Positions 24,963-39,717 of a DNA stretch of 64,000 nucleotides are shown here, piece after piece. The stretch covers positions 124,001 through 188,000 of the forward strand of contig JALHRQ010000001.1 of the NCBI GenBank assembly GCA_022841375.1. The letters run 5' to 3'. The DNA comes from Burkholderiales bacterium. GTDB taxonomy: Bacteria > Pseudomonadota > Gammaproteobacteria > Burkholderiales > SG8-41. A model generated the notes under the pieces. The model worked only from the letters and a program-made list of their open reading frames with translations. It was not told the origin of the DNA and made no database searches. Position 1 is the stretch's first letter. The number at the start of each line of letters is the position of its first letter. A program made the position numbers and the translations under genes.

Positions 24963-25985
24963 TCAACCCGGCACAGATTTGACAACGCTGCAAGCCGCCC
25001 TCGCGCTTTGGCTATTCACAAAACCTAGTGACAAATCAAAAGATCGCCGCCCTTTCGGGGCAAGCGATTGGTACAAGGTTTTCTGAACCGCGCCTAACCG
25101 TGTCCCGCTCTCACCATGGGTATCGCACCTAATGACAAAATCTTTTTGTGGCGAGGCAGTGTTGTTTTGCAGAATAAAGCGCACCAGCATTACACTTCCA
25201 AAGCCGCCCAACTCCCAATGCAGCAACTCAAAACCCGTGCTGCCCTGGCGTAGTTTTGCGTCAAGTTCTGCGGCTGCAGCGGCGCGGCCTCGCTGCGCAT
25301 TTTGTTGGGCACGCTCTTGACCTGATTTTTCCTTCCGGAGTTGAGCCACCCGCTCTGCGACTTCCTTGCGCATTTGGTCATCCGAACGCGTCCGCATGGA
25401 TAACAGCCGCAAAGTGTCGCACGCGGCGCGCTCCTCCCCGGCGCCGTATAGCCGCTGGCATTGTTGCTCCTCGGCCTTTTGCTTTTCCGCCTCGGCACGT
25501 GCGACAGCGGCGGCGGATTTTTTATACTCAGCTTCCGCCTGCACTATCGTCTGGCGTTCATCGTCACTGACAGGGGCTTTCCCGAGCCGCGCCCGCACAT
25601 CGGCGACCATCTGCACATCCGACCGCTGCGACATGCTCAACATCCGCAGGGTCTTGCATGCTTCGCGCTCCCCTGCATCGGTGAATAGTCTGTGGCACTG
25701 GTCATGCTGTTGCAGGCGGGCCGCTTCGGCCGCAGCGGCGGCGCGCTCATCGGCCTCACGTTTCGCGTGCCTGGCTTCCATCTCTGCGAAACCGACACCG
25801 TAAACCATTTGGCTAATTTTATCCCGCAGGGCGTCGTCGGAATATTCCTGAGAATTCATGTTCAGGATCGTGGCGCAGGTCGCTCTGGCGCTTAAGTCCG
25901 TAAATAGATTGGCGCAGCGAGCGCTGTTATCTGCCCACGCCGGAGAGATCAGACAACACAGTGCGCCTAAGTACAGCAGTCGCAT
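24963..25985 (-). CDS. Secreted/periplasmic hypothetical protein with three Cys-containing repeats
   Basis: Signal peptide MRLLYLGALCCLISPAWA; repeats CANLFTDLSARATC, CHRLFTDAGEREACKTLRMLSMSQRSDVQM, CQRLYGAGEERAACDTLRLLSMRTRSDDQM. Confidence 0.75.
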   Translation of the reverse strand: MRLLYLGALCCLISPAWADNSARCANLFTDLSARATCATILNMNSQEYSDDALRDKISQMVYGVGFAEMEARHAKREADERAAAAAEAARLQQHDQCHRLFTDAGEREACKTLRMLSMSQRSDVQMVADVRARLGKAPVSDDERQTIVQAEAEYKKSAAAVARAEAEKQKAEEQQCQRLYGAGEERAACDTLRLLSMRTRSDDQMRKEVAERVAQLRKEKSGQERAQQNAQRGRAAAAAELDAKLRQGSTGFELLHWELGGFGSVMLVRFILQNNTASPQKDFVIRCDTHGESGTRLGAVQKTLYQSLAPKGRRSFDLSLGFVNSQSARAACSVVKSVPG

Positions 25986-26042
25986 GCCACCCCCTGCGAG
26001 TTGTTGTTATTGCGGGTCAGTCTACCGCACCAACCTACCACC

Positions 26043-26067
26043 AAAAAGACGCCCACCGAAGCGGGCG
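26043..26067 (-). terminator. Rho-independent terminator after the 1954-aa gene
   Basis: Minus strand CGCCCGC-TTCG-GTGGGCG then TCTTTTTGG: 7-bp stem, UUCG tetraloop, U tract. Confidence 0.85.
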
Positions 26068-26092
26068 AAAAACCCACCATGCGCGGCAACAT

Positions 26093-29000
26093 CTAGCGCT
26101 TGGGCGGCCCCAGCAACACTGCCTGCATGCCGGCGTCATCGTCGGCCACGGCCTCGATCCCTGAGATCGTGCGCCACACCTGGTAACCCGGCAGCCCGAG
26201 CAGATACGACACCCCGAGAATGATATTTTTCGCGTCGGTCTGGTCGCCTTCACCGGCTGCCACATCGGCCGTGGACTTGATGCCCTTGCCCAGCCCCTCG
26301 AAAAACGATTCCAGCGGGGTGATGCGGAAACCGAAGTTGTGCACGTCCTTGTCGAACAGCGACCAGGTGAACGATGCGAAGTCGCGCCAGATCGGCACGA
26401 AACCTGAGGCATACATGGCCACGCTGCGCCCGATGCACTTGCCCCAGCCCGCGGCATCGTCGGCCTTGTCGCAGCGCCCGCTGGCGATCTCGGCCAGCAC
26501 GGCTGGCATCACCACGATCAGCGTGAAGTCGGCTGCCAGCCTGGCCACCGCGTAGGGGTCGCCAGCTTTGGCCGCCTGCGCGTTGATCTTCCCCGAGCGC
26601 ACCAGCATGCCCAACTGCGCGCCGAAGTAGCCGTAGAACATCGTGAATGCCTTTTTAAGCTGCCCCCACCCGCCATGCCCGCTCTGGATATTGGCCAGGT
26701 CAACGATGCGGCCAGAGCCGTGCGTTTGCCGTACGATGTGGTCAGCGTATTGCACCGCCTGCGCCTCGTCGTTCGCGTGGCGTTTCATGGCTTCCTCGTA
26801 GGCCGCCAGCCATGTCGGGCTGCTCGTGCCTTTGTCCACGTAAGTGATCAGTGCGAACCAGCCCGCATACTCGGGTAGCAGCGAACCTGCGGCGCTGAAT
26901 TTCTTGACGGCATCCTGCAGATCGCGCTCGTAGCTGTCGTGCCGGTTGCGCATGTAGTCAGATCGGTCGAGGATGAACCGGTAATGTTCGGCCATCTGCG
27001 GGCTATAAAATCGGCCAATGTTTCGCAGCAGCGCCCCGGCGTTGACTCGCGCCATCGCTGGAATGATGCCGGTGACGTTCACCAAAGCAGTTTTCACCGA
27101 TAACCCCATGGCCACCACCAGCGTATTTTTCCGCGCTACCGACAGCGTGCGCTCAATGAACCCTGTGGGGTTACGTGGCGGTGCTGCAGTCTCGCGCAGC
27201 CGTTGCACTATGGCGCGGTAAACCTCGGTGCCGCCTGCGGTCTTGATCGCGTTCTGCAGGCGGGCACTGTTCAACAGGCGCCAGGTGTCGGCGACGGCTT
27301 CACGGAATGCCAGGTCGTGCACAGTCTCGTTGATGGTTTCCGACATCACGCCGAGATCGAGTCGCATGGCGCGCTTCACTTCCTGCACGCGCTGGGTGCT
27401 GCTGCCCTGATTGGTGCGCGGCATGCCCATGCTGCCACCCAGCATGTCCTGCACGGCGCCGGCTTCATCGAACCGGTGCGCCCGCTCGGACAAGTCGGCA
27501 TCGTATTTGATGCGGAAATAACCCCCGCGGGCTTGGCCATGCGGGGTCTGAAACGGCAGTGGTTCCACTTTGGGTGGTGCCGTGCCGCGGGTGCGCTCGT
27601 TCAATGCCTGCAGTTCAGGCCACAGGTTTTCATCGAACATGCGCCATATCGCATCGACCAGGCGCCAATCTTTCGCATCGAGGTTAGCCACAACGCGCTG
27701 CACTTGCGCGTCAGTCCAGCCATGCCCCTGCAGCAACCGCTGCCGGCCCTCGGCGTTTCCGTAATGCAGAGCCACCACCACCATATTCTCGCGGGTCAGA
27801 CTGCGGCCGATCTCGGGCACGTAGATGCCGCGTTGGCTGAATGCCAGCCGTTCCTTGATGCTGTATTGCGCGAACAGCGGTTTAAAGTAGGCATAGAGTT
27901 CTTTGAGTTTTTCCGCCTTCCAGTCGGCGCGCGTGCTCAGCCGGCCGAATAGCGATTCATGCGCCTGCCCCACCTGCCCGCCGCTCATCAAGTTAATCAG
28001 GGTTTCGACGTTCAAGAATTCCGCCTGCAACTTGTCGCCGGCACGCGCCAGGCCGCGCTTAATGCTCGGCACGTAGTCCGGTTGCACGCCCTTGGGCTCG
28101 CCGTCCATGCCGAACGCCGCAGGGTTGTGTTGGCGCATCTCGGCCACAATCCGCGCTTCCTCGTCAGCAAAGGACATGCCGCGGATTTCCAGATACGCCT
28201 GCTGCTCGCGCCGGGCCAGCCGCTCAAGTTGCTTTACCGCGTCCACCAGGCCGCGGAATTCCTCAACGGGAAGATCCCGGAAATGTTTGCGGTAGGTCTC
28301 ATTCAGCAGCGCGGCCGGGATGTCGGGCTGCACGGCTGCCAGGCGCTCGGATTCCGCGCGCACCCAGTCGGCAAGCGGCATGCGCTCGGCGTCGATCTGG
28401 CGCCGGGTCAGGCTGGTGCGCAGGTCGAACCGTTCCAACAGGGTGTCGAGTTGTTCGAGGAATTCACCCCGCAGGTTTTTGCGCGTGCCTTCGTTGTCGA
28501 ATTTCTTGAGGTAGCGCACGCTGGCGTCCACCTCATCAACGGCTCGAGCAGCTGCGCGGTGCAATTGGTTGCTGAGCAGTTGCGCCCGCTTGTGCTGCGC
28601 CGCCTTGGCCGTGTCGCCTTTTTTCCATGCGGCCACAGTCGCCCGCGCGGCCTTGGCTTCGGCCACCGAATACTGCGACGGCCGCAGGTCGCGCACTTTG
28701 GTGCGGGCCACGGTCACCTCGGCAAACTGCCGGGCGGCGGTCAGTTGTGGCCGCCGCTGGCCGGTGGCATCCGATAAGGCATTCACCTCGCGCTCAAGAA
28801 AACGGGCGCGCACGTCGTTGGTTATTGCTGCCTCGGCACCACGCTGCAGCGCGGTAGGATCGGACAAATCCCCATAGCGTTCGAGCATGCGTTGATCGGT
28901 CATGCCCTCAATCACCTGATCAGGTGGCGGTGCATCGAGCAGCGCCCGCACCACTTCGTCACCGGATGTAAACCCGAACAGTTCCGCGTAGACATCCGGG

Positions 29001-31957
29001 TCTACGCCCTCGGTGGCGGCCAGCCCGTTGGTGCCCGTCGAGAGATACCGCCAAGGTGCGGCGGGGCCTTCGCCGTACATCTCTTTCAGCACCGGCAATG
29101 ACAGCTTGGTGCCGGACATACCCAGCGCGGTCAGCAATCGCGCCTGCCGGCTGTTCAAGTCGGCGTCGGTGGTGTCGCGCAGCGTGCCATTCGCTACCAG
29201 TTCACGCACGCGATACACCGGCGTGGCCATCACCTCGGCCTCGACTTCGGCGCGCACCTCGGCGCGCTTTGCCTCGGCCTGGCGCTGCAGTTCTTTCAGT
29301 TTGCGACCTTTGGCGTTGGTCAGCCATTGCATATCGCGGAGGCTGCGGCGCTCCAAATTGCCCACGGCCTCGCGGGTCGCGTCATGCCCGAGCGCCTGGT
29401 ATTCGCCCCATTGCTCAGGCGTCATGCCGGTGCGCTCGGCGGATTCAAACAACGGTGCATAGCTGCGCGATGCTTCGGCCACGCCGATTTGCTCGTCGGT
29501 CGCCAACAAGCGATCCATCACGCCGCGCACTTCGTCTGACAGTTCGACATTCAGTGATTTAAGCGACCGGTAGACGTTCACCATCCACGAGCGGAAACGG
29601 GCAAACAGCCCTTGCATTTGCAAACTGGGTGCCTGTCCCTCGAACAGATAAGCCTCGAAACCTCGGGCAAACTGCTCGTGGTGTGGGCGCTTTTGCTCAA
29701 GTGGCATGCTGCGCCAGGTGGCTAGGTCATGCACCCCGAACCATTGCAGCACCGCCTGCATGTCGTCCTGCAGTTGCTTCGGCGCGTCGGGACGGCTTGC
29801 CACGTCGGCCAACACTTCGAGGTAAAAGTGCCCCGACTCATGAATAAATGTGGACAGATCGGCGTTTTGTAATAACGTTAAGACGCTTGGGGTTAACGTC
29901 AAATCGCCAGTGACCCCGAACGCGATCTGCCCCCGTTTATTCACGGGCTTCGGTATAGATGATTCTGTAGGCGGCTGGCCAAACACCTGCCGCATTACGC
30001 GCGTGAGCAGTGTGGGCTGTTGTGTCAGGGCAGCGGGCACCTGCCCAAATATCTGCGCGCCCGGCACCGCCTCGGCGCGCACCTCAAGCGGGTAGCGTTG
30101 CTGCATTTCCTGCGGTGCCAATCCAAGGCGCTGCGCCATGGTGGTATAGAAATTGGCGCCAAGCTTGGCGTACGCTGAATTCACGTCATCCGTAAAGCGC
30201 CCCGCCTGCGTGAGTTGTTGCATCAGCACCGCCTCGACGGCCTGCGCAGCCTGCTGCACGCGTTGAGTGGCTTCCTGCTCGGCAACCACGCGCGACACTT
30301 CCGCCTCAAACGCCTTGGCTTCCTCTTGCTCGAAAGTCTGCACCTCGGTAACACTTGGCGCTGCCGGATCAGTGCGCAGGTGCGGCAACAGTGCATCAGC
30401 GTACGGCTGGCCTGCAATGTGCGCCGCGTATTCCCCAATGGGAATGCGCAAATCACCACCGGCTTCGAGGGCTTGCTCGATCTGTTCTGCCACGCTGGGG
30501 GCATCCGCGGCAAGCTGGTCGAGCGTAACGCCCGCCTGTTCAAGGGTCGCGGTGTCCACATAGACATGCGTGATGCCACCCTCGGCTGCATTTTCCACAA
30601 ACTCACGGAAGCTTTCAGGATCGCGCGCCCGCACCTTGCTCGCCTTGGCCACTTCGGTAAGCTGCTGCAGGGCCGCTGCGTCTTGTTTAGCTGTGGCTGC
30701 GACGGCCTGACGCTCGCGCATACGGTTAAGTGTCATCAAGGACACATCCACAGCCGCGCCAGGTATCTCGGCAATCATCTCGGACAGCACTGCGGCCGGG
30801 TTGACCTCCTGCCCCGATGCAGCAGAGCCCAGCGCCTCTCCGGTGCCACCACCTGCCGCCTGCACGCCCATCTGTGCTGCAATGTTCTTGGCCGGGCCTG
30901 CGGCCAGCCTGACGCCGGCCATACCTGCTGTTGCGGCGTCCACGGCGCCGATCACGCCAGCTTTCACCATGGCCTGCCGGTTACGTTGTGCAAACTCTGG
31001 CGATGCCATGGCGCGCTTGATCGCAGCCGGGTCGCGCACGTTCACGCCCATCTCGTCCAAAATGCCCGACAGCGCATTTACATACTCCGTGCCTGCCGAT
31101 GTGCTGCCGACCGTGTAGGCAAGCCCGCGCACCCCTCCTACAACGCCACCGCCAACGATCAGCGGCAAGCTGGGCAGCAGTGCGCCGGTGGATTCCGCCA
31201 TTACCTGCGCGGTGATCGAGCTGGGTGCATCGGTAAATCGGTTGATTGCCTGGCCAAACGTCTTGGACGCCTGAAACCTTTGCAGATCTTCGTCGGCCGG
31301 CAGTGCTGCGACTTCTTGACCGCGACGGATGAAACCCACCGCGCTATCAGCCATGCGCTGCTCATGATAGGCACGCGTGCGCGCCAGATTCTCGGGGGTG
31401 CGTCCCGCACCCATGAACACGGAGCCCAGCGGCGACGCCTGCAGAATCGCTGCATCGTCGGCCAATTCCCCGCGCTCGATGCGATCAACCAGATTCAGGA
31501 TGCCGGCCGAGTCTTGCACGGCCTGCGCCTCGCCACCTCGCTGCGTGCTCGCAAGCCCGCGTTTAAAACTGCTGGTGATCTTGCCAACCAGGGAAAGGTT
31601 GCCGGTGTCATCGTGGGCAATTTTGGCGAATGCCGGATCGGTCAACTGGCGCGCGAGCACCGGATCGAACCGCATGTCCTGTTGAATTTGACGCCGCTGC
31701 GCTTCACGCTTCACGGCATCAAAGTTGCGTTCCACTACGGGCTCAGGTGTATCGGTCAGGCCGGCCAGTCGTCGCGCCTCCGCAGCCTTGTCGGGATTTA
31801 CCTTGAGGGCGCCGCGCAGCGTTATGTCCGCTCGTTCGCTGGCCGGCAGTTCACCGGGTAACAGAAACCCGCTCGACGGCTCGGGCACCGATGGCGCAGC
31901 CGATAGCGCATTGCGTTGCATGCGCCCTTCCTCATCGGGCAACAGAAATTCACTCAT
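26093..31957 (-). CDS. Large polyvalent phage protein (virion-associated) with HExxH metallopeptidase-like domain
   Basis: 1954 aa; STFIHESGHFYLEVLADVA ... HEQFARGFEAYLFEG; C-terminal region resembles PLxRFG/large polyvalent proteins of podoviruses. Confidence 0.85.
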   Translation of the reverse strand: MSEFLLPDEEGRMQRNALSAAPSVPEPSSGFLLPGELPASERADITLRGALKVNPDKAAEARRLAGLTDTPEPVVERNFDAVKREAQRRQIQQDMRFDPVLARQLTDPAFAKIAHDDTGNLSLVGKITSSFKRGLASTQRGGEAQAVQDSAGILNLVDRIERGELADDAAILQASPLGSVFMGAGRTPENLARTRAYHEQRMADSAVGFIRRGQEVAALPADEDLQRFQASKTFGQAINRFTDAPSSITAQVMAESTGALLPSLPLIVGGGVVGGVRGLAYTVGSTSAGTEYVNALSGILDEMGVNVRDPAAIKRAMASPEFAQRNRQAMVKAGVIGAVDAATAGMAGVRLAAGPAKNIAAQMGVQAAGGGTGEALGSAASGQEVNPAAVLSEMIAEIPGAAVDVSLMTLNRMRERQAVAATAKQDAAALQQLTEVAKASKVRARDPESFREFVENAAEGGITHVYVDTATLEQAGVTLDQLAADAPSVAEQIEQALEAGGDLRIPIGEYAAHIAGQPYADALLPHLRTDPAAPSVTEVQTFEQEEAKAFEAEVSRVVAEQEATQRVQQAAQAVEAVLMQQLTQAGRFTDDVNSAYAKLGANFYTTMAQRLGLAPQEMQQRYPLEVRAEAVPGAQIFGQVPAALTQQPTLLTRVMRQVFGQPPTESSIPKPVNKRGQIAFGVTGDLTLTPSVLTLLQNADLSTFIHESGHFYLEVLADVASRPDAPKQLQDDMQAVLQWFGVHDLATWRSMPLEQKRPHHEQFARGFEAYLFEGQAPSLQMQGLFARFRSWMVNVYRSLKSLNVELSDEVRGVMDRLLATDEQIGVAEASRSYAPLFESAERTGMTPEQWGEYQALGHDATREAVGNLERRSLRDMQWLTNAKGRKLKELQRQAEAKRAEVRAEVEAEVMATPVYRVRELVANGTLRDTTDADLNSRQARLLTALGMSGTKLSLPVLKEMYGEGPAAPWRYLSTGTNGLAATEGVDPDVYAELFGFTSGDEVVRALLDAPPPDQVIEGMTDQRMLERYGDLSDPTALQRGAEAAITNDVRARFLEREVNALSDATGQRRPQLTAARQFAEVTVARTKVRDLRPSQYSVAEAKAARATVAAWKKGDTAKAAQHKRAQLLSNQLHRAAARAVDEVDASVRYLKKFDNEGTRKNLRGEFLEQLDTLLERFDLRTSLTRRQIDAERMPLADWVRAESERLAAVQPDIPAALLNETYRKHFRDLPVEEFRGLVDAVKQLERLARREQQAYLEIRGMSFADEEARIVAEMRQHNPAAFGMDGEPKGVQPDYVPSIKRGLARAGDKLQAEFLNVETLINLMSGGQVGQAHESLFGRLSTRADWKAEKLKELYAYFKPLFAQYSIKERLAFSQRGIYVPEIGRSLTRENMVVVALHYGNAEGRQRLLQGHGWTDAQVQRVVANLDAKDWRLVDAIWRMFDENLWPELQALNERTRGTAPPKVEPLPFQTPHGQARGGYFRIKYDADLSERAHRFDEAGAVQDMLGGSMGMPRTNQGSSTQRVQEVKRAMRLDLGVMSETINETVHDLAFREAVADTWRLLNSARLQNAIKTAGGTEVYRAIVQRLRETAAPPRNPTGFIERTLSVARKNTLVVAMGLSVKTALVNVTGIIPAMARVNAGALLRNIGRFYSPQMAEHYRFILDRSDYMRNRHDSYERDLQDAVKKFSAAGSLLPEYAGWFALITYVDKGTSSPTWLAAYEEAMKRHANDEAQAVQYADHIVRQTHGSGRIVDLANIQSGHGGWGQLKKAFTMFYGYFGAQLGMLVRSGKINAQAAKAGDPYAVARLAADFTLIVVMPAVLAEIASGRCDKADDAAGWGKCIGRSVAMYASGFVPIWRDFASFTWSLFDKDVHNFGFRITPLESFFEGLGKGIKSTADVAAGEGDQTDAKNIILGVSYLLGLPGYQVWRTISGIEAVADDDAGMQAVLLGPPKR

Positions 31958-32502
31958 AGTTTTGTGTTCTCGGTTTTTTGCTTCCAGTCATACCAGCGGC
32001 TTGCCACATTGCCTGCAGTGGTCAGAAGTGTGCCGGCCGTGGCACCGAAACCGTTTGACGACTTGGCACGCATGCGCAGCAGGTCGACATTGCTGCCGTA
32101 GTTCTGCGCCTGTGTGCGGTACACCCACGCCTCTTTGTTGGCGTTGTCCATGATGGTGTTGGCGTCGATTGCACCCATGTAATCGGTGTCGGTCAGAATG
32201 TTCAGGGCCGAGCCTTCCCCGAGACCAATACCGTTCTCGGCCATGCGAGCGATCTGTGTGCCTTTTAGTTGCCGCGTTTTCAGTTGCGAGGCGACCGTGG
32301 CTTTCTGCCCGCGCCGGATTGCATCCTCGGCTTGCCAGGTCGAATACTGCTTGTTGTTGTCGGCAACCTGCGCCTGCATTTCATAGGCTGACTTTTCGGC
32401 CTCGGCCTTGGTGTACGTGCCGTAGGCAGCCGCAACACCACCCGCGGCCTGCATGCCCATGCCTACCTTGCCGACCGTGGCTATCGTTGAGGGATCACAC
32501 AT
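31954..32502 (-). CDS. Internal virion protein-like (T7 gp14-like)
   Basis: MCDPSTIATVGKVGMGMQAAGGVAAAYGTYTKAEAEKSAYEMQAQVADNNKQYSTWQAEDAIRRGQ...; ATGA overlap with the 1954-aa gene. Confidence 0.7.
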   Translation of the reverse strand: MCDPSTIATVGKVGMGMQAAGGVAAAYGTYTKAEAEKSAYEMQAQVADNNKQYSTWQAEDAIRRGQKATVASQLKTRQLKGTQIARMAENGIGLGEGSALNILTDTDYMGAIDANTIMDNANKEAWVYRTQAQNYGSNVDLLRMRAKSSNGFGATAGTLLTTAGNVASRWYDWKQKTENTKL

Positions 32503-32722
32503 TGGCTTGCCTTTCTGCGGCGGCTTTTCGATCTGCTGCCACTTGGAGTATCTGGCTGATTTCAGTCGCGGCTGCACGCTCCATCTGCGAAGCCTCCGGC
32601 AGTCGCCCGCAATGAATTATTGCCGCCAGGTCTTGTGCCAACTCAGCATTCGTGAGCGGCGGCTGATTGATCCGGTTGGCGTGCGCTGCCTCCAACTTTT
32701 CAAGCCTGGTGCTGTTGCTCAT
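32495..32722 (-). CDS. Hypothetical protein (element)
   Basis: 75 aa; overlaps neighbours by a few nt on both sides. Confidence 0.6.
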   Translation of the reverse strand: MSNSTRLEKLEAAHANRINQPPLTNAELAQDLAAIIHCGRLPEASQMERAAATEISQILQVAADRKAAAERQANV

Positions 32723-33201
32723 GCCAAGTCCGATACGTCGTCAATTACCGGCCGCCATACGTGTCCGGCTTCCAGCGCTTTCAGTCGGCGGTCAAAGTCA
32801 TCAACCGCCACGGCGCGGGCATAGTTGTTGATCATGCTCAGCAGGCGGTCGGCCGCCTCGGCGGATATGTCGCCAGTGGCAACTGCAGCCACCACGGCCT
32901 CGCATTTATCTGTGAACGTCTTGGCCTCTTTCAGGCCCGGCACTTCGACCCGCTCGCTTTCTTGCTTCGGCACTGGCGCCAATCGCTCAAGGCAAATGCG
33001 CAGCGCATTGGCCGCAGCGAATGGATCCACGTGTTGCGTCAGTGCCAGCGCCCTTTCAATCAGCACCACCCGGTGCGGCTCGATCAGCGCGCGCACTAGT
33101 TCGCTTTGTGCACGCCCCTTGGGTCGGCCAGGGCCACCAGGGCCGCCCGGCAGAAACTTGCCCTCATGATCACGCGGCGCCACTGCGGTCTGCTCAGTCA
33201 T
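32719..33201 (-). CDS. Hypothetical phage protein with GRPKG-type N-terminus
   Basis: DHEGKFLPGGPGGPGRPKGRAQSELVRALIEP...; DUF5681-like/small-terminase-like N-terminus (tentative). Confidence 0.6.
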   Translation of the reverse strand: MTEQTAVAPRDHEGKFLPGGPGGPGRPKGRAQSELVRALIEPHRVVLIERALALTQHVDPFAAANALRICLERLAPVPKQESERVEVPGLKEAKTFTDKCEAVVAAVATGDISAEAADRLLSMINNYARAVAVDDFDRRLKALEAGHVWRPVIDDVSDLA

Positions 33202-33452
33202 GCCAAGTCACTCACGGAAACAAAATTGAATCTTTCAGCGGTTGGCAACCTCTCCCGCTGCTGTCGCTGGCACTCGTCGGCCATTTCGGCTTGCAGTATT
33301 TGCACCACACGGCTCCGCGCTGCTTTGTAGATTTCCGGGTGGTCACGCTTCACCCATCTCCGCTGCGCCACCAGCCAAAACAAATAGTGCTGATTGGCGC
33401 ATTCGGCCTCACCTATGGTGTGCCCCGCGTATTTGCCGAAAGGCAAGATCAC
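33198..33452 (-). CDS. DUF3820-like small protein
   Basis: MILPFGKYAGHTIGEAECANQHYLFWLVAQRRW: PFGKYxG motif. Confidence 0.6.
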   Translation of the reverse strand: MILPFGKYAGHTIGEAECANQHYLFWLVAQRRWVKRDHPEIYKAARSRVVQILQAEMADECQRQQRERLPTAERFNFVSVSDLA

Positions 33453-33453
33453 A

Positions 33454-33939
33454 TCAGCCTCGCTTCTTGTTCATCGCCTGCCGCACCAACCGTGCAGCTA
33501 TGCGGTAGTCGTCACCTGCCCCGGTCTTGTTGAGAAAATCCCGCAGGCGGGGATTGCTCTTAACCATGGCCTGCGCCGCCTGTATGCCCTCAATTGCGCG
33601 TCGCTCACCGTAGGTTTCCACCAGATGCGCATGGGTTTTGCTTCGCATCTCTGCTGCGCGCTCGGCGCTCGGTGGGTTCATTTCCAGTTCCGCCCGCACT
33701 TGCGCGAACACATCGAGTGCATCAGCGTCGAGCCCAACATCACCCGCTAACTGGCTGTATTCGACTGCGCGCGCCTGGCGGGTGGCATCGTCACCGGCGG
33801 TAGGCTCCAACCCCAGCACCTCGGCCGCTCGCGGCAATATCGTCGGGTTATAGAGCACTGCGGCCCGTTCTTCGCTGGATGTCGGCTCGTATGGTTTGTC
33901 CGCCAACAGGGTCGGGTTGCCGGTTGTTTGCTCAAACAT
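33454..33939 (-). CDS. Hypothetical phage protein
   Basis: 161 aa, coding-like composition, overlaps the upstream gene by 8 nt. Confidence 0.6.
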   Translation of the reverse strand: MFEQTTGNPTLLADKPYEPTSSEERAAVLYNPTILPRAAEVLGLEPTAGDDATRQARAVEYSQLAGDVGLDADALDVFAQVRAELEMNPPSAERAAEMRSKTHAHLVETYGERRAIEGIQAAQAMVKSNPRLRDFLNKTGAGDDYRIAARLVRQAMNKKRG

Positions 33940-34615
33940 TTGCGGTCTTCCCTTCGGCCAGGCGGATTTTCAATTGCTCTGCCATCGTGTTCGCAGCGTC
34001 AGCTGCGGTATTGCCACGGCGGCGGATGTCGATGCTCACATGCGTAAAGGCGATGTAGGGATCAACAGCCGCGACCAACCCCGTTTCACTGAGCACGCGC
34101 TGAAACGTTTGCGAGACCGCGAAGGCAATGGCGGGGCTTTCTCCCCGCGAGTTGTCGAGCAGTGCCCGCATGCGATCTGAGCGGGCACGCTCCGTCAGAT
34201 GTGTGGCAGGTGATAGTTTTCGTACCAGCGCGGTAATCTCGCCGCTGGTCGCTTGCCATCCTTCAAGCGCGCCTTTCAACGCACTGAATGCCGCGTCTAT
34301 CGCCTTGGCCTGCTTTGCGCGCTGCCCAGCGAGTGCGTGTATTCGTTCAACGCGGTCGCTATGTTCCTGTTGCCATTGGGTCGCCCGTTCTGTGCGTTCG
34401 ATCTGTTCAGCCGCTGCCAACGCCGTCTGCAGCACCTTGATGCGAGATTCCAGCGCTTCGACTTTACCGAACGCCTCGACGGCCTGGTCAACCAGTTTGC
34501 TGTCGGACTTTGATGCGGCCTCGGTCATTCTGGCATTGCCGACATTCGTAAGGGCGCCCTGCTCGGCCTTGAGTTCGGCGATCTGCTTTTTCAGTTGCTC
34601 GGTACGGGTGGACAT
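33932..34615 (-). CDS. Hypothetical phage protein, coiled-coil N-terminus
   Basis: MSTRTEQLKKQIAELKAEQGALTN...; start chosen at internal ATG. Confidence 0.6.
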   Translation of the reverse strand: MSTRTEQLKKQIAELKAEQGALTNVGNARMTEAASKSDSKLVDQAVEAFGKVEALESRIKVLQTALAAAEQIERTERATQWQQEHSDRVERIHALAGQRAKQAKAIDAAFSALKGALEGWQATSGEITALVRKLSPATHLTERARSDRMRALLDNSRGESPAIAFAVSQTFQRVLSETGLVAAVDPYIAFTHVSIDIRRRGNTAADAANTMAEQLKIRLAEGKTANV

Positions 34616-34680
34616 GGTTGGTGTCTCCTTTAATTTGATGCACTGATTGTCGGGCCGGGATTGCGGGGGCTGTCGATTAG

Positions 34681-35121
34681 TCACAGCGAAAACACAGGCA
34701 CCTCGATGCGGGGTGCCGATGTACTGGGATCGAAGACCACCGAACCGTGTTTGTGGCGAATGCAACCCGGCACCCAAACGAAGCACGGCACGCGATCCGC
34801 CAGGTGTTTTGCAACCCTTTGAGCGCGTTGCCACGCCACCCTGGCAGCACCCCCGCCTGGCATGTCTGATGCCCGCACGGGGCGGTTTGGCTGCGCCAGC
34901 AACGCCAACAAGTCGGGGAAGCCGTCCCCGCTGGGCGTGTACGGCCGCAAGTTGTCGGCATCACCCACCATGAACACGCCGGCATCCTCGGCGGGCTCGA
35001 TCACCAGCCGACGCGCCGCCCGACGCAAAGCGCGCAAACCTTCAACGGCGGCATGGTTCCCGCCCGCTGCTCTGATGCAGCGCTCAAACTCGTCAAGGGT
35101 TTCGGGCGGCAGGAAGATCAC
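34681..35121 (-). CDS. Hypothetical protein (element)
   Basis: 146 aa MIFLPPETLDEFERCIRAAGGNHAAVEGLRALRRAARRL... Confidence 0.55.
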   Translation of the reverse strand: MIFLPPETLDEFERCIRAAGGNHAAVEGLRALRRAARRLVIEPAEDAGVFMVGDADNLRPYTPSGDGFPDLLALLAQPNRPVRASDMPGGGAARVAWQRAQRVAKHLADRVPCFVWVPGCIRHKHGSVVFDPSTSAPRIEVPVFSL

Positions 35122-35124
35122 GGC

Positions 35125-35361
35125 TTACCACTCCACGCGCGTATTGGTTCGGAAACCTAGGCACGGCGTGGGGCAAACGGGGCTATCGGGGCTATCGGGG
35201 CGATGTGCAATTTTCTGCATGCAGTTTTTTGCAGACAGATATGCCCTTGCTTTTTCAGGTGTCCAAACGGTGTCTAGCGTGCCCGCGCGTATTGCTTGCA
35301 AAACCCCCTCTTTTTTAGGTGTCAGGTGGGTGTCCGGCGTGACAGGTTTTGACAGGTTCAC
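35125..35361 (-). CDS. Hypothetical small protein (element)
   Basis: 78 aa, GTG start; repeated DTHLTPKK/DTVWTPEK. Confidence 0.45.
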   Translation of the reverse strand: MNLSKPVTPDTHLTPKKEGVLQAIRAGTLDTVWTPEKARAYLSAKNCMQKIAHRPDSPDSPVCPTPCLGFRTNTRVEW

Positions 35362-35640
35362 GGACTAACAAACCTTAACAAACCATAACAAAACTTAGCG
35401 TTTTTGCCGCCCCAATTTGGGCCACATGCAACTTTCTGCACATACGGCTTGCCCGCGTGCATGCGCAAAGGATTGCGGGCAAAGCGGATTTTTCTGCTTT
35501 CGGCGGGCAATCCCTGCAATACATGCAACGTCTTACAGACAGACGTTGCATTGCATTGCAGCTTCGGGGATTTTGCAACGTGCAACACGCTGCAATTTGT
35601 TGCATGGCGTTGCGTGTTGCGTACGAATCTGCAACTTTTA
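35258..35640. repeat. Dense short direct-repeat region (iteron-like), candidate replication origin
   Basis: GGTGTC pairs at 11-bp spacing (35258/35269, 35318/35329); GACAGGTT at 35341/35351; TAACAAA at 35366/35376/35386; TGCAAC or GTTGCA at 35427, 35524, 35545, 35574, 35581, 35599, 35630 plus near-matches. Confidence 0.55.
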
Positions 35641-37713
35641 GCATGTTGGAAAGCCCACCTTGCCCTCTACCACTACAACCATGCCAGCCGTTTTTAACTT
35701 GTCCATGGCTGCCATGATTCGCTGCCTTCGCGTATCACGTCCCTTTTCAGGGTTTTGAGTCAGTCGGCTGGCGGCCTCATTCACCAACTCGTTTTCCGAT
35801 GGTTTTCCGCCGTCTAAGGCGAGCAAGTCGCGCAGCGCCCCCATGGCCGTTTCTTCGTTGACACCCAACCGAGCGCGGCGCGACCCTTTGACATGCTTGG
35901 CGGCAGCTACGTGATCGACCACGCATGACGTGGCCACCTCGCCTTCGTCGTCCAACCCCACGGGAATCTGCAGCAGCTTGAACCCAAATTCGGCGCCGTC
36001 CTCACCCTCTTTCAGTTTGGTAAGCGTGGCTACCCGGTCGTGATCGGCCCGCAGCACCTCGATCTCGGCATCCGCAGCCGCACGCAAACCAGACCACCCC
36101 CGCGCGCCCTTGCTCGCATCCTTGCCAGAATGATGAATCAGCACGACCAAGGCGCCGGTGGCCTGCCTGATATGCCGGCAATGACCCACCACCTGGCCCA
36201 AATCCTCGCCGCTGTTCTCATTACCGCCTGGCATCACCTGCGCCAGCGTATCGACCACGACCACCGACACGGGGCCGCAGGCTTTCAGCCCGAGGATCAC
36301 GTCGGCGATCTGCGACCGCTCCAAAAAATTCGGCGCGTCGGGTAAAAAATGAATGTCGATATCGGTGGGAGCAAGCCCTCGGTGCTTTGCCTGCGCTTTA
36401 AGGCGGTTCTGCGCCCCGCTGGCCCCCTCGGCCGCGATGTAGGCTACGCGCCCCTTCGCTACCCGGTGGCCGCGCCATTCCACGCCCAGCGCAATCGACG
36501 CCACCAGGTCGAGCGCAAAAAACGTCTTACCGCTTTGACTCTCGCCGTAGATCACCACCAGGTCAGCGGCCGGCAACACGTTCTTTATCACCCAGCCGGG
36601 CGGCTTGCGGTCAACAAATTCGCCCGGCGACAAAAACCGGAATCGCAGCGGCTTCGCAGCTACGGCTGCAGTCTCGTCCTTGAAGTCGGCCGCAATGGTC
36701 GGGTCGATGAAGCCGTGCGGTGCGGCCATGTGGTACAGCGTGCGCGCGGTGTTCTTTGTTTCCCGTGCGCTGTTGACGTGAGGCCAAAACCGGTTATCTA
36801 GGAATTCGGGATCGTATTTGCTGCTCTTGGCACTCAGTTCGTGGGCAAGCGCCAGCCCTTCATCACTGCCCCCGGTGGCGTCGTGAATACCAAAAATAGC
36901 GCTTCGCCATTCGTCGTAGGCCAACTCGTGCTCGCCCGCGTTGGGGATCGCATCAATGGCGGCGCGCAGCGTCACCAGATCGGCGGAAATCTCAGTGTTG
37001 ACGGACTCCCGCTCCGGCCGTTGCAACACCGGCACGGATGGTGACATCGGCCAATCAACGCCCGGTGTCAGGCGCTTCGATTTGCCAGCGCCAGGGAGGA
37101 TCACCATATTGCCGCATCCCCCGATAGGCACTTCCGATTGCTTCGGGTTGATCTCCACTTCACGTTTGATCACCCCGCCAGCGCCGTTCTTTAAATCCCA
37201 TACGGCCAACGCTGCGCGCAGCATCTCGCGCACGCTGTAGGCGTCCTGCGGTTCATCCCACACCAGCCATAAATGCAAACCCTTGCCACCGCTCGACCGA
37301 AACAGCACGGGCGCGTAACCATCACACTCAAGGGCGGTCATCACGCCCTCAGCGGTGGCGCGCATTTCTGCCCATGGGGTCCCGCCCTTGTGGCTATCGA
37401 AGTCCAAGCAGGCCGCGCGAACGGTGGAAGATCCCGGCGCGATGGGGCACAAGCCGTAAGCTTTCTGCTGCATCACGTGCTCGGATAACTTCACCTCGTC
37501 GAACGCTTGTTCGATGTGGCGCGGGCCGGCGCTTCCTTTGACCCAGCAATGGCCCGTAAACATCCGCTCGACCAAAGGCCGCAGCGCTGCCGCGCGTTCC
37601 TCTCGTGACGCCTTGACACCAGCCGAATGACTGCCTAAAATTTCATCACCCGTTGTTGCTTTACCTGAGCCCTGCAAGTTCCCGCTTGCGGGGCTTGTCG
37701 TTTGCAGGATCAT
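35638..37713 (-). CDS. Primase-helicase fusion: archaeo-eukaryotic-type primase domain plus RepA-like RecA-fold ATPase
   Basis: AACLDFDSHKGG...VLFRSSGGKGLHLWLVWD (AEP/TOTE-primase-like) and VIYGESQSGKTFFALDLVASIALG ... VVVVDTLAQVMPGGNENSGEDLG (RepA-like). Confidence 0.85.
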   Translation of the reverse strand: MILQTTSPASGNLQGSGKATTGDEILGSHSAGVKASREERAAALRPLVERMFTGHCWVKGSAGPRHIEQAFDEVKLSEHVMQQKAYGLCPIAPGSSTVRAACLDFDSHKGGTPWAEMRATAEGVMTALECDGYAPVLFRSSGGKGLHLWLVWDEPQDAYSVREMLRAALAVWDLKNGAGGVIKREVEINPKQSEVPIGGCGNMVILPGAGKSKRLTPGVDWPMSPSVPVLQRPERESVNTEISADLVTLRAAIDAIPNAGEHELAYDEWRSAIFGIHDATGGSDEGLALAHELSAKSSKYDPEFLDNRFWPHVNSARETKNTARTLYHMAAPHGFIDPTIAADFKDETAAVAAKPLRFRFLSPGEFVDRKPPGWVIKNVLPAADLVVIYGESQSGKTFFALDLVASIALGVEWRGHRVAKGRVAYIAAEGASGAQNRLKAQAKHRGLAPTDIDIHFLPDAPNFLERSQIADVILGLKACGPVSVVVVDTLAQVMPGGNENSGEDLGQVVGHCRHIRQATGALVVLIHHSGKDASKGARGWSGLRAAADAEIEVLRADHDRVATLTKLKEGEDGAEFGFKLLQIPVGLDDEGEVATSCVVDHVAAAKHVKGSRRARLGVNEETAMGALRDLLALDGGKPSENELVNEAASRLTQNPEKGRDTRRQRIMAAMDKLKTAGMVVVVEGKVGFPTC

Positions 37714-37979
37714 CCGGTGCCCCCATCACGCCTCATGCGGATGAAATCAGCGGCCACCGCGTTTTGCCCGCTCGCAGTCTCTATGGTCGCCCGCCCTTCC
37801 GTGTAACTGAGCACAGTGGACTCGTGCCAATACGGTTCATTGTCATCGCCGAAGTAATCAGGCTGGGGAAATGCACCATGCTCAACCGCACGGGTCAGCA
37901 CATCGCCTTGCATTTCCGAATAGATCAACGCGATGTCGTCGCGGCTGTAATCGGAAGGATCGCGCTTGCCAGTGCTCAT
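37710..37979 (-). CDS. Hypothetical protein (element)
   Basis: MSTGKRDPSDYSRDDIALIYSEMQGDVLTRAVEHGAFPQPDYFG...; overlaps primase start by 4 nt. Confidence 0.6.
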   Translation of the reverse strand: MSTGKRDPSDYSRDDIALIYSEMQGDVLTRAVEHGAFPQPDYFGDDNEPYWHESTVLSYTEGRATIETASGQNAVAADFIRMRRDGGTG

Positions 37980-38245
37980 GCTGCCGCCTGTTGCTTCGCT
38001 CGCTGGCGCAATTCCACACCGCTTAAACCAGTAAGTTGCACGGGCTTTTGCACCGCGATCCATTGCATGACATCGGAGCGCCGCCAGGCCACGTTGCACT
38101 CACTGCCGAGCCTGATTTGCCGGGGGAATGTGGGATCAAGCCGCATCAGCCGGTAAACGGCTTTGGTCGATCTTTTCCCCAGCAGCGTGGCAAGCGCCGT
38201 GGCGGTCAGCAGTTCAGGGGTATCAACTTTTGTGTATGCGGCCAT
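37976..38245 (-). CDS. AlpA-family/MerR-like HTH regulator
   Basis: LLTATALATLLGKRSTKAVYRLMRLDPTFPRQIRLGSECNVAWRRSDVMQWI. Confidence 0.8.
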   Translation of the reverse strand: MAAYTKVDTPELLTATALATLLGKRSTKAVYRLMRLDPTFPRQIRLGSECNVAWRRSDVMQWIAVQKPVQLTGLSGVELRQRAKQQAAA

Positions 38246-38293
38246 GGTGGCCCTCCTATATGGACAACAAAGGCGACTGTAGAGCGGTGAGTG

Positions 38294-38410
38294 GTCATCA
38301 AGGGCACCCCCACAGACACTGGGAGCGATGATGGAGCCGCACCGGGTCGTCAAGTGCACCCCTACAGACGTTGAGGGCGATGTTGGAGGCATACGCGGCC
38401 GTCGAGGGCA
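38294..38410. repeat. Imperfect 52-bp direct repeat (two full units plus partial third) between alpA and int
   Basis: GTCATCAAGGGCACCCCCACAGACACTGGGAGCGATGATGGAG (38294) vs GTCGTCAAGTGCACCCCTACAGACGTTGAGGGCGATGTTGGAG (38346); GTCGAGGGCACC at 38401. Confidence 0.75.
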
Positions 38411-38415
38411 CCACC

Positions 38416-38446
38416 CCAAAGCAAACGGCCCGCACGAGGCGGGCCG
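38416..38446 (-). terminator. Terminator-like hairpin downstream of int
   Basis: Minus strand CGGCCCGC-CTCGT-GCGGGCCG-TTTGCTTTGG. Confidence 0.65.
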
Positions 38447-38469
38447 ACGAATTTACAGGGGGTGTAAAA

Positions 38470-39717
38470 CTAGGCAGCCAGGGCAGTCTCGATATGCACT
38501 ACCTTGGGCGCCACGAGCATTTCGAGGTGGTCGGCCCATTTCTGCAGCCAAGTGCGAGCCTCGGCGTCATACCGGTGAACGTCATAGATCGCCCCGATGG
38601 AGCCGTCTACGTGGTTCAGGATGCGATCCTGCACCACCCGGGGACAACCCAGCTTGGCCAACCCTGTTGCCATCGTGCGACGCAGATCGTGCACCGTCCA
38701 CGGCACTTCTATCGGGTCTGGGCTCTCGCCTTGGTCACGAGGATGCCGAGCGGTGTATTGCGCCAGCCCCAGCGCCTTCTGCTGCACATGCTTGTCGTCC
38801 TTGGATGGAAAAACAAAGCGCGTGCCCATTCCCTCGCGGTAACGCAGTAATTGCTGGGCTTGCGCCGACAGCATCACGTTATGGGGCTCCTTGTTCTTTG
38901 TATCGCGGATCACCCACACACCTCGCTCCATGTCCACATCACGCCAGAGAGCCGCCACCACCTCACCGGATCGGCAGCCGGTCAGCAGCACCAACAACAG
39001 CGCATCGCGCACGGTGCGGCTGTATGGGCTGTGTGGCAGCCATTTCAGAAACATGGCCAGTTCGGCGTCAGTGAACGCCCGTTTTCTTCTCACCTGCGCC
39101 GCCCCTTTGATTCCCACTGTGGGCGAAACGAAGTCATCGGGCAGGCGCTGCTTGTCGGCAGCGTGCGCGTAGGCGCAGCGGATTCGAGACAGCAACATCG
39201 TGGCGCAACGCGGCGCCCGCCGCATCATCGGCTCGATCACGCGGTTGTAGAGTTCCCGCCGCGGCACCTCGGTCGCCGGCCGCATGCCCACCTTCGGCAC
39301 AAACTCCTTGCGCAACAACCTGGCGCTTTCTCCGCCGCGTTTCTGCTTTGAAAGCACCTCGTTGATGTAATCCTCGACCATGTGCGCGATCAGGTAGCCC
39401 ACTTGCCGTGTGGCCTCGCGCAATTGACGCTGCTCGTCGCGGGCCTTCCGCTTCTCGATCTGAGGGTCTACCCCCTGCTCTCTGGCTAATCGCCTCTTGG
39501 CCAACTCGGTACGGGCGCCGGCAAGGGTCAACGCGCCGAATTCACCCAGCTTGATCTGGCGCAGGGCGCCATCCGTCGAGCGGTACCGGTAAAAGAACAC
39601 CCGGGCCGAGTCGGTGCACCGCACGCGCAGGCCGGGATTTTCGGGGTCAGCGAGTTCCTCGCCGGGCTTCATATCGGCGATAATTTGGCGGGTCAGCGGT
39701 ATAGGTTTTGTGTTCAT
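38470..39717 (-). CDS. Tyrosine-type site-specific integrase (P4-type, DUF4102 N-terminus)
   Basis: LRQIKLGEFGALTLAGARTELAKRR; LLTGCRSGEVVAALWRDVD; HDLRRTMATGLAKLGCPRVVQDRILNHVDGSIGAIYDVHRY. Confidence 0.95.
   Translation of the reverse strand: MNTKPIPLTRQIIADMKPGEELADPENPGLRVRCTDSARVFFYRYRSTDGALRQIKLGEFGALTLAGARTELAKRRLAREQGVDPQIEKRKARDEQRQLREATRQVGYLIAHMVEDYINEVLSKQKRGGESARLLRKEFVPKVGMRPATEVPRRELYNRVIEPMMRRAPRCATMLLSRIRCAYAHAADKQRLPDDFVSPTVGIKGAAQVRRKRAFTDAELAMFLKWLPHSPYSRTVRDALLLVLLTGCRSGEVVAALWRDVDMERGVWVIRDTKNKEPHNVMLSAQAQQLLRYREGMGTRFVFPSKDDKHVQQKALGLAQYTARHPRDQGESPDPIEVPWTVHDLRRTMATGLAKLGCPRVVQDRILNHVDGSIGAIYDVHRYDAEARTWLQKWADHLEMLVAPKVVHIETALAA

Follow-up and report, generated by a model that had tools for sequence, protein, structure and literature searches.

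A Putative Replication Origin with Lineage-Specific Iterons Directly behind a Fused Primase-Helicase Gene

Introduction

In a 64-kb stretch of a Burkholderiales genome of 4.08 Mb (bases 124001-188000 of the contig, hereafter the window), the segment 35515-35621 is very probably a replication origin, and its TGCAAC-type iterons would be bound directly by the winged helix of the adjacent primase-helicase, as judged from the comparison of related loci. A preliminary description of the window had proposed an iteron cluster beside the primase-helicase gene as a candidate origin. The conserved position and layout of the repeats, their lineage-specific words, and the covariation of these words with a recognition helix all favor that proposal, over a narrower extent than was claimed at first.

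The Primase-Helicase and Its Integrated Element

The primase-helicase (691 aa; 35638-37713, minus strand) carries the Pfam domains AEP-TOTE, PriCT_2, and AAA_25 (RepA-type helicase). Primase, RepA-type helicase, and winged helix are all found in one protein, for which a hexameric form is predicted from its type. In a PDB sequence search, the helicase part matches RSF1010 RepA (1g8y, E 1.3e-5) and the primase part matches a CRISPR-associated PrimPol (7nqf, E 1.6e-4); nothing useful was found there with the sequence of the C-terminal domain. In the AlphaFold2 model, residues 600-691 (92 residues) form a winged helix with three helices and a two-strand wing (mean pLDDT 89.6), and the domain itself is placed at about residues 617-691 (35641-35865, minus strand). 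Its Foldseek matches are generic winged helices with E values of 0.03 and up.

The gene lies in an integrated element (24963-39717) that adjoins mutS (39853 onward, named from its sequence). The primase-helicase gene is followed on one side by genes for an AlpA-family protein (37976-38419, Pfam) and an integrase (38470-39717) and then by mutS, and on the other side by small ORFs and phage-family proteins. The internal virion proteins of the element are a 1954-aa LPD22/phrog_9880 protein and a phrog_418 protein, and one internal virion protein is located at 31954-32577. The ORFs scanned include no recognised gene for a capsid, portal, or terminase, and further left there are suf/nifU genes and a host-like TPR gene; the element is therefore an integrated, phage-derived unit of about 15 kb, either a satellite or a prophage remnant. 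Near the integrase side, no shared repeat of more than 12 bp was found that could mark attachment sites.

Repeat Families of the Window

The preliminary description listed four families of short repeats between 35258 and 35640, and a motif search of the window recovers every one of the motifs at its coordinates: GGTGTC (35258/35269 and 35318/35329), GACAGGTT (35341/35351), TAACAAA (35366/35376/35386, in 10-bp steps), and TGCAAC (35427/35524/35574/35581/35630) with its reverse complement GTTGCA (35545/35599), together with the near-matches TGCAAT (35515/35591) and GTTGCG (35609/35616). By chance expectation, TGCAAC/GTTGCA is the sole family that is remarkable in itself. The short form TGCAA/TTGCA reaches its maximum over the 64 kb at this cluster (12 in 300 bp, where the window averages 0.70); this number was attained in nine of 5000 sequences simulated with a first-order Markov model of the same composition, and at least seven copies of GTTGCA/TGCAAC in none of the 5000. 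In the 300 bp past the stop codon of the primase-helicase gene, GTTGCA occurs 7 times where 0.89 is expected, and this span ranks first among the 75 windows of the locus. If a 600-bp downstream window is taken instead, the locus ranks second, with GACACC as the top word; the 300-bp scan is preferred as the span where the iterons of the relatives sit.

In relatives, equivalent repeats at this position exist for the TGCAAC family alone. GGTGTC, GACAGGTT, and TAACAAA lie outside the conserved array, and no conservation of them was seen in the comparison with relatives. The extent is narrower as well: the proposed origin core lies at about 35515-35621, containing the TGCAAC family and a central dyad, and does not take in all of 35258-35640; a role of the three other families is unproven. 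The near-matches, on the other hand, do belong to the TGCAAC family, and the greater part of them falls where sites are expected from a ten-site layout that the window shares with relatives.

It should be mentioned that the span 35250-35361 contains two 32-bp repeats, 60 bp apart and 75% alike, each with a GGTGTC pair at 11 bp, followed by TGACAGGTT twice at 10 bp. These repeats overlap a 78-aa ORF (35125-35361) with no match in relatives or phages, and the region is possibly an operator or an unwinding region. The AT content of the window rises modestly to 0.54-0.60 at 200-275 bp past the stop codon (window mean, 0.40), and the AT profile marks an AT-richer stretch with the TAACAAA repeats (35362-35437, assigned to neither strand) as a possible candidate for an unwinding element. 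In the relatives, an AT rise of +0.13 is seen at 150-200 bp past the stop codon.

The Ten-Site Array and Its Counterparts in Relatives

Aligned with the arrays of relatives, the window has ten sites, which are numbered here from the stop codon. Iterons 1 and 2 (CGCAAC; 35616-35621 and 35609-35614) and iteron 3 (TGCAAC; 35599-35604) are on the minus strand, and they are followed by the inverted iterons 4 and 5 (TGCAAC; 35581-35586 and 35574-35579) on the plus strand. Then comes a minus-strand triplet at 5-bp spacing, made of iterons 6 and 7 (TGCAAT; 35555-35560 and 35550-35555) and iteron 8 (TGCAAC; 35545-35550). Iteron 8 is also the left arm of the central dyad, the right arm of which is iteron 9 (TGCAAC; 35524-35529, plus strand), and iteron 10 (TGCAAT; 35515-35520, plus strand) closes the array. 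Three of these ten sites have a final T and two an initial C, which speaks somewhat against the origin reading. The dyad (35523-35551, minus strand) is a perfect 11-bp inverted repeat, ATGCAACGTCT / AGACGTTGCAT. Outlying copies at 35427-35432 (TGCAAC, plus strand), 35591-35596 (TGCAAT), and 35630-35635 (TGCAAC) fall outside the conserved layout.

Counted from the stop codon, the sites of the window are offset by 16, 23, 33 / 51, 58 / 77, 82, 87 / 108, 117 bp, and those of the relative L005 by 34, 41, 52 / 65, 74 / 95, 100, 105 / 125, 133 bp; after a shift of 18 bp, the two series agree to 0-4 bp, near-matches included. The exact 5-bp triplet is also found in L005, L158, L160, L164, and L165.

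For a wider comparison, loci were gathered with the primase-helicase as the query from viral contigs, genome contigs, and whole genomes, and the most over-represented 6-8-mer in the 300 bp past the stop codon was compared with that in all other 300-bp windows of the same locus. In the main set of 131 non-redundant relatives (<90% identity, window locus included), the downstream span is the top repeat window of its locus in 85 cases, where 2.8 are expected. The comparison with homologous elements that had been suggested as a check reveals repeat clusters at the same position. In the other 46 relatives the span is not ranked first, and some have no visible cluster; the motif finder misses degenerate arrays. 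The repeat word varies by lineage and includes GCAAC, GCACC, GAAGC, GGAACA, GCCACA, ACCCTT, GTATTAA, and others.

The arrangement of the repeats is more constant than the words. In the 81 loci with a confident motif, the array extends from a median of 27 bp past the stop codon to near 128 bp, with a median of 7 copies and equal use of both strands, and the spacings peak at 9 and 21-22 bp. The recurrent layout consists of about 7-10 short sites, 9 bp apart and in both orientations, around a dyad of 21-22 bp: the first two or three sites are direct, a pair in inverted orientation comes next, and another direct group is separated by the gap of 21-22 bp from a last inverted pair. Layouts of loci with unlike words agree at 0.479, against 0.395 after shuffling, in pairs that are not independent of each other.

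In the same 81 loci, the three phases are about equally represented among the iteron spacings (179/184/154), which argues that the repeats are not a coding effect. This bears on the reading that the region is the gene of a Cys-rich peptide or a transcription terminator, with the repeats as a by-product. Frames over the TGCAAC repeats do give Cys- and Gln-rich ORFs, and inverted repeats are able to form hairpins. Nevertheless, these frames either have no relatives or give a few weak protein matches, which are to the equivalent repeats of relatives; no terminator-like site was found in a scan of the array region, and no Rfam family scores above its gathering threshold, the matches being sub-threshold microRNA models. 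The earlier remark that no convincing gene covers the array is thus borne out, the conserved Cys-rich peptide that had been named as a refutation of the origin finds no support, and we regard the peptide or terminator reading as hardly credible.

Covariation of the Repeat Word and the Recognition Helix

The similarity of iteron profiles was compared, using plain identity, with every 8-residue window of the helicase and the C-terminus, with the identity of the helicase core partialled out. The covariation peaks at residues 658-665 (GRDTRRQR), with a partial r of 0.478 in 78 loci, 0.586 in 63 loci, and 0.563 in the 47 loci below 70% identity, values in which the partial correlation only approximates a phylogenetic correction. 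Outside the C-terminal region, no window exceeds 0.13-0.16, and none of 10,000 permutations reaches the correlation observed at 658-665. The top covarying columns are R659, Q664, D660, T661, and R662. Because the third helix of the modelled winged helix starts at residue 662, the peak lies at the N-terminal edge of the recognition helix; the helix and this edge comprise residues 659-675 (RDTRRQRIMAAMDKLKT; 35689-35739, minus strand). A BLOSUM-normalised scan was set aside, being distorted where rows are gapped: its helix test is not significant (1637/5000), and its single columns already fall at 659-664.

Several rough rules can be read from the pairs of helix and word. Helices with RD[TSLM]RxQ and no H after it pair with GCAAC; for RDxRxQH the word is mostly GCACC, for RDQR it is often GAAGC, and for RDRRR often GCCACA; RDKRR[ED]H is paired with GCCCCA, xDPK with ACCCT, and TRTAxRxVN with GTATTAA or GTATTCA. 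L165 and L160, for example, have Q-H in place of Q-R at residues 664-665, and GCACC where the window has GCAAC/GCAAT. There are exceptions: L105 combines RDARKQR with GCACC, L099 combines RDQRRQH with GAAGC, and L114, L042, and L217 have RDQ with other words. Leave-one-out prediction is only moderate (0.66 when the nearest helix is used, 0.55 with the nearest core; p 0.0017); in the case of the window locus itself, the relative with the nearest core is a slightly better predictor than the one with the nearest helix.

Natural Exchanges of Tail and Array

In near-identical phages, tail and repeats are swapped jointly. L187 and L182 share 88-91% DNA identity over most of about 4 kb upstream, until about 180 bp before the stop codon; the identity is gone across the winged-helix tail and the iterons, and it is back downstream at 79%. 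L201 and L164, with helicase cores identical in nearly all aligned columns, have a like pattern of exchange, as do the pairs L055/L216, L228/L187, and L214/L219. Where helicase cores are at least 70% identical, the iterons are alike (>0.75) in 68% of the pairs when the helices are similar and in 8% when they differ. The cultured Roseobacter phages offer a further example: CRP-823/811 carry ACTACAAA ten times and CRP-821/831 carry GTATAAA ten times, with matching layouts and an identical central AAACCCTTTAGGGTTT hairpin, and both iterons and recognition helix differ between them. Covariation and natural exchanges together strongly support the view that the C-terminal winged helix of the primase-helicase itself reads the repeats.

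These exchanges also weigh on the idea that another protein of the element, such as AlpA or a small downstream protein, binds the array for excision, partition, or packaging. AlpA-family proteins do bind DNA, and the element encodes one. However, the identity of the iterons follows the recognition helix of the primase-helicase and not the rest of the protein, winged-helix tail and iterons are swapped jointly, and neither the AlpA of the window nor the ORFs downstream of the array have counterparts in the relatives fetched. This idea therefore appears very improbable.

The Central Hairpin

In many relatives, the gap between the dyad arms contains a CCC-TTTA-GGG hairpin that is strand-polar. Hairpins with a TTTA loop number 33 in the relatives, where 0.93 are expected, and CTTTAG is found 43 times (2.1 expected), against 4 occurrences of the reverse word (3.4 expected). 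The stem pairs vary jointly, with, for example, C-G, G-C, A-T, and T-A at one position. In the window, an inner hairpin GTCT-GTCTGTA-AGAC (35530-35544) occupies this place; it deviates from the common TTTA form and resembles that of L160.

Taken together, phages with an AEP primase, a RepA-type helicase, and a winged helix may share an undescribed modular origin, in which a lineage-specific array surrounds the widespread strand-polar hairpin as primase start, some six helix residues spell the iteron, and tail and array form an exchangeable specificity cassette. We consider the chances of this broader proposal to be about even. If some six residues spell the iteron and tail and array move as a cassette, origins would be readable from the protein sequence, and they perhaps diversify to escape interference or competition.

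A Proposed Route to Initiation

I would picture initiation at this origin as follows. The C-terminal winged helix would bind the TGCAAC-type iterons at 35515-35621 directly, and this binding would bring the RepA-type helicase and the AEP primase together on the DNA immediately past the gene that encodes them. A helicase hexamer would be loaded at or beside the central dyad, the DNA would open, and the AEP primase would lay the first primer, for which the hairpin of the dyad is a possible place. The comparison of loci supports two of these steps, namely the conserved iteron array and its recognition by that helix; origin firing, helicase loading, and hairpin priming are inferred from known systems.

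The main objection to an origin is that the array may be an operator, through which the primase-helicase or its winged helix regulates the transcription of its own or the next operon. The array does sit between the primase gene and the next gene, plasmid iterons often double as origin and regulatory sites, and the covariation speaks for binding by the primase-helicase, not for origin firing. Against this, the array is 3' of the gene and not at its promoter, a consensus scan of 35000-35800 finds no promoter, dense arrays with 9-bp spacing about a dyad, accompanied by an AT rise, are in keeping with origins, and a replicative helicase would be an unusual repressor. An operator alone is thus improbable, though less so than the other alternatives, and an origin remains the preferred reading.

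Comparison with Known Systems

In the SaPI/PICI elements SaPIbov1 and EcCICFT073, iterons lie directly 3' of the initiator-helicase gene and are recognised by the C-terminal domain of the helicase (PMC7581432, PMC6092414). The iterons described here are likewise directly 3' of the rep gene. Unlike the SaPI Rep (D5/SF3-like), the helicase here is of the RepA/AAA_25 type, as seen from Pfam and the RSF1010 RepA match, and primase, helicase, and winged helix are fused; two iteron sets flank an AT-rich region in the PICI origin, whereas the iterons here surround a dyad. In P4, the alpha protein has an SF3-type helicase with its own origin-binding domain acting on iterons, and crr is far from ori. 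A primase-helicase with its own origin-binding domain and iterons are common to both systems, but the helicase here is of the AAA_25 type and no second TGCAAC cluster was seen within the 64-kb window.

The ORF904 protein of pRN1 combines an AEP primase, a helicase, and a winged helix, its origin, which includes a stem-loop, lies just downstream of the gene, and for phage BIP-1 a stem-loop has been proposed past the replication gene (PMC4234260). Like ORF904, the protein here unites AEP primase and winged helix; the pRN1 helicase is of the SF3 type, in contrast to AAA_25/RepA, and a stem-loop of about 100 nt with a binding motif "not yet identified" stands against iteron arrays, an inferable code, and a small central hairpin. 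RSF1010 has an AEP-type primase and an origin with iterons and stem-loops (ssi) where the primase starts (PMC4234260, PMC4538821). It resembles the present system in its RepA-type helicase, AEP-type primase, iterons, and stem-loops, but it uses separate RepA, RepB', and RepC where one protein holds the three roles here. By analogy, the central hairpin may act like an ssi site of RSF1010, and from these sites and pRN1 it can be taken as the putative priming site.

Iterons and the DNA-binding region of the initiator are described as changing together between relatives in the geminivirus Rep (PMC12548392) and in the PLE RepA (PMC8263062). Both initiators, the former of ssDNA plant viruses and the latter of the RepA_N type, belong to families unrelated to this primase-helicase. 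Unlike DnaA-dependent iteron plasmid origins, the arrays here have no DnaA boxes beside the iterons (0 over 81 loci, 3.2 expected).

An origin behind the initiator-helicase gene, or the use of the initiator's own DNA-binding domain, is known from SaPI/PICI, SCCmec Cch2, P4, and pRN1. The present system is set apart by its RepA-type helicase, by the complete fusion, by recognition rules that can be inferred, by the hairpin, and by helix and array being exchanged as one unit; no description of such an origin type was found in the mostly open-access literature searched. The comparison locates the probable replication origin of a large group of phages and prophages, most of which are uncultured and for which the cultured Roseobacter phages offer test cases, and it extends an origin organisation said to be PICI-specific to a different helicase class. 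Some 60-80 pairs of helix and DNA word, together with the near-isogenic exchanges, form a natural data set for the joint change of initiator and origin specificity. A conserved hairpin is exposed that may be the priming site of the fused AEP primase, and a testable lock-and-key code is offered for how such phages start DNA copying.

Arrays in More Distant Relatives

Several relatives (L030, L059-L065, L067-L069, and L072) match the query in the AEP primase half only, and strong clusters often lie behind their genes, with words such as GGTTAC, GGTCGTA, TGTAGACA, and AGTGTAAC. The arrangement is therefore probably wider than this helicase family. No array was found behind the RepA-type helicase genes of Caulobacter phage GB2A, Vibrio phage 1.210.O, and Mycobacterium phage Dove (L230, L237, and L238). 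Caulobacter phage GB2A has an RDVRKQN helix despite this, and its iterons may be elsewhere in its genome. L089 has eleven CGCCGAAG repeats in one orientation at 293-569 bp past the primase-helicase stop codon, farther than usual, possibly a different origin design or an unrelated tandem repeat. Finally, in Burkholderia phage BcepGomr (L232, behind gp62), the RepA-type helicase gene is followed by an AT-rich region resembling AAATAAAT, together with a long GC hairpin, CCCTCTCCCCTTTAGGGGAGGGG; the central TTTA hairpin is shared, without a clear 6-8-mer array.
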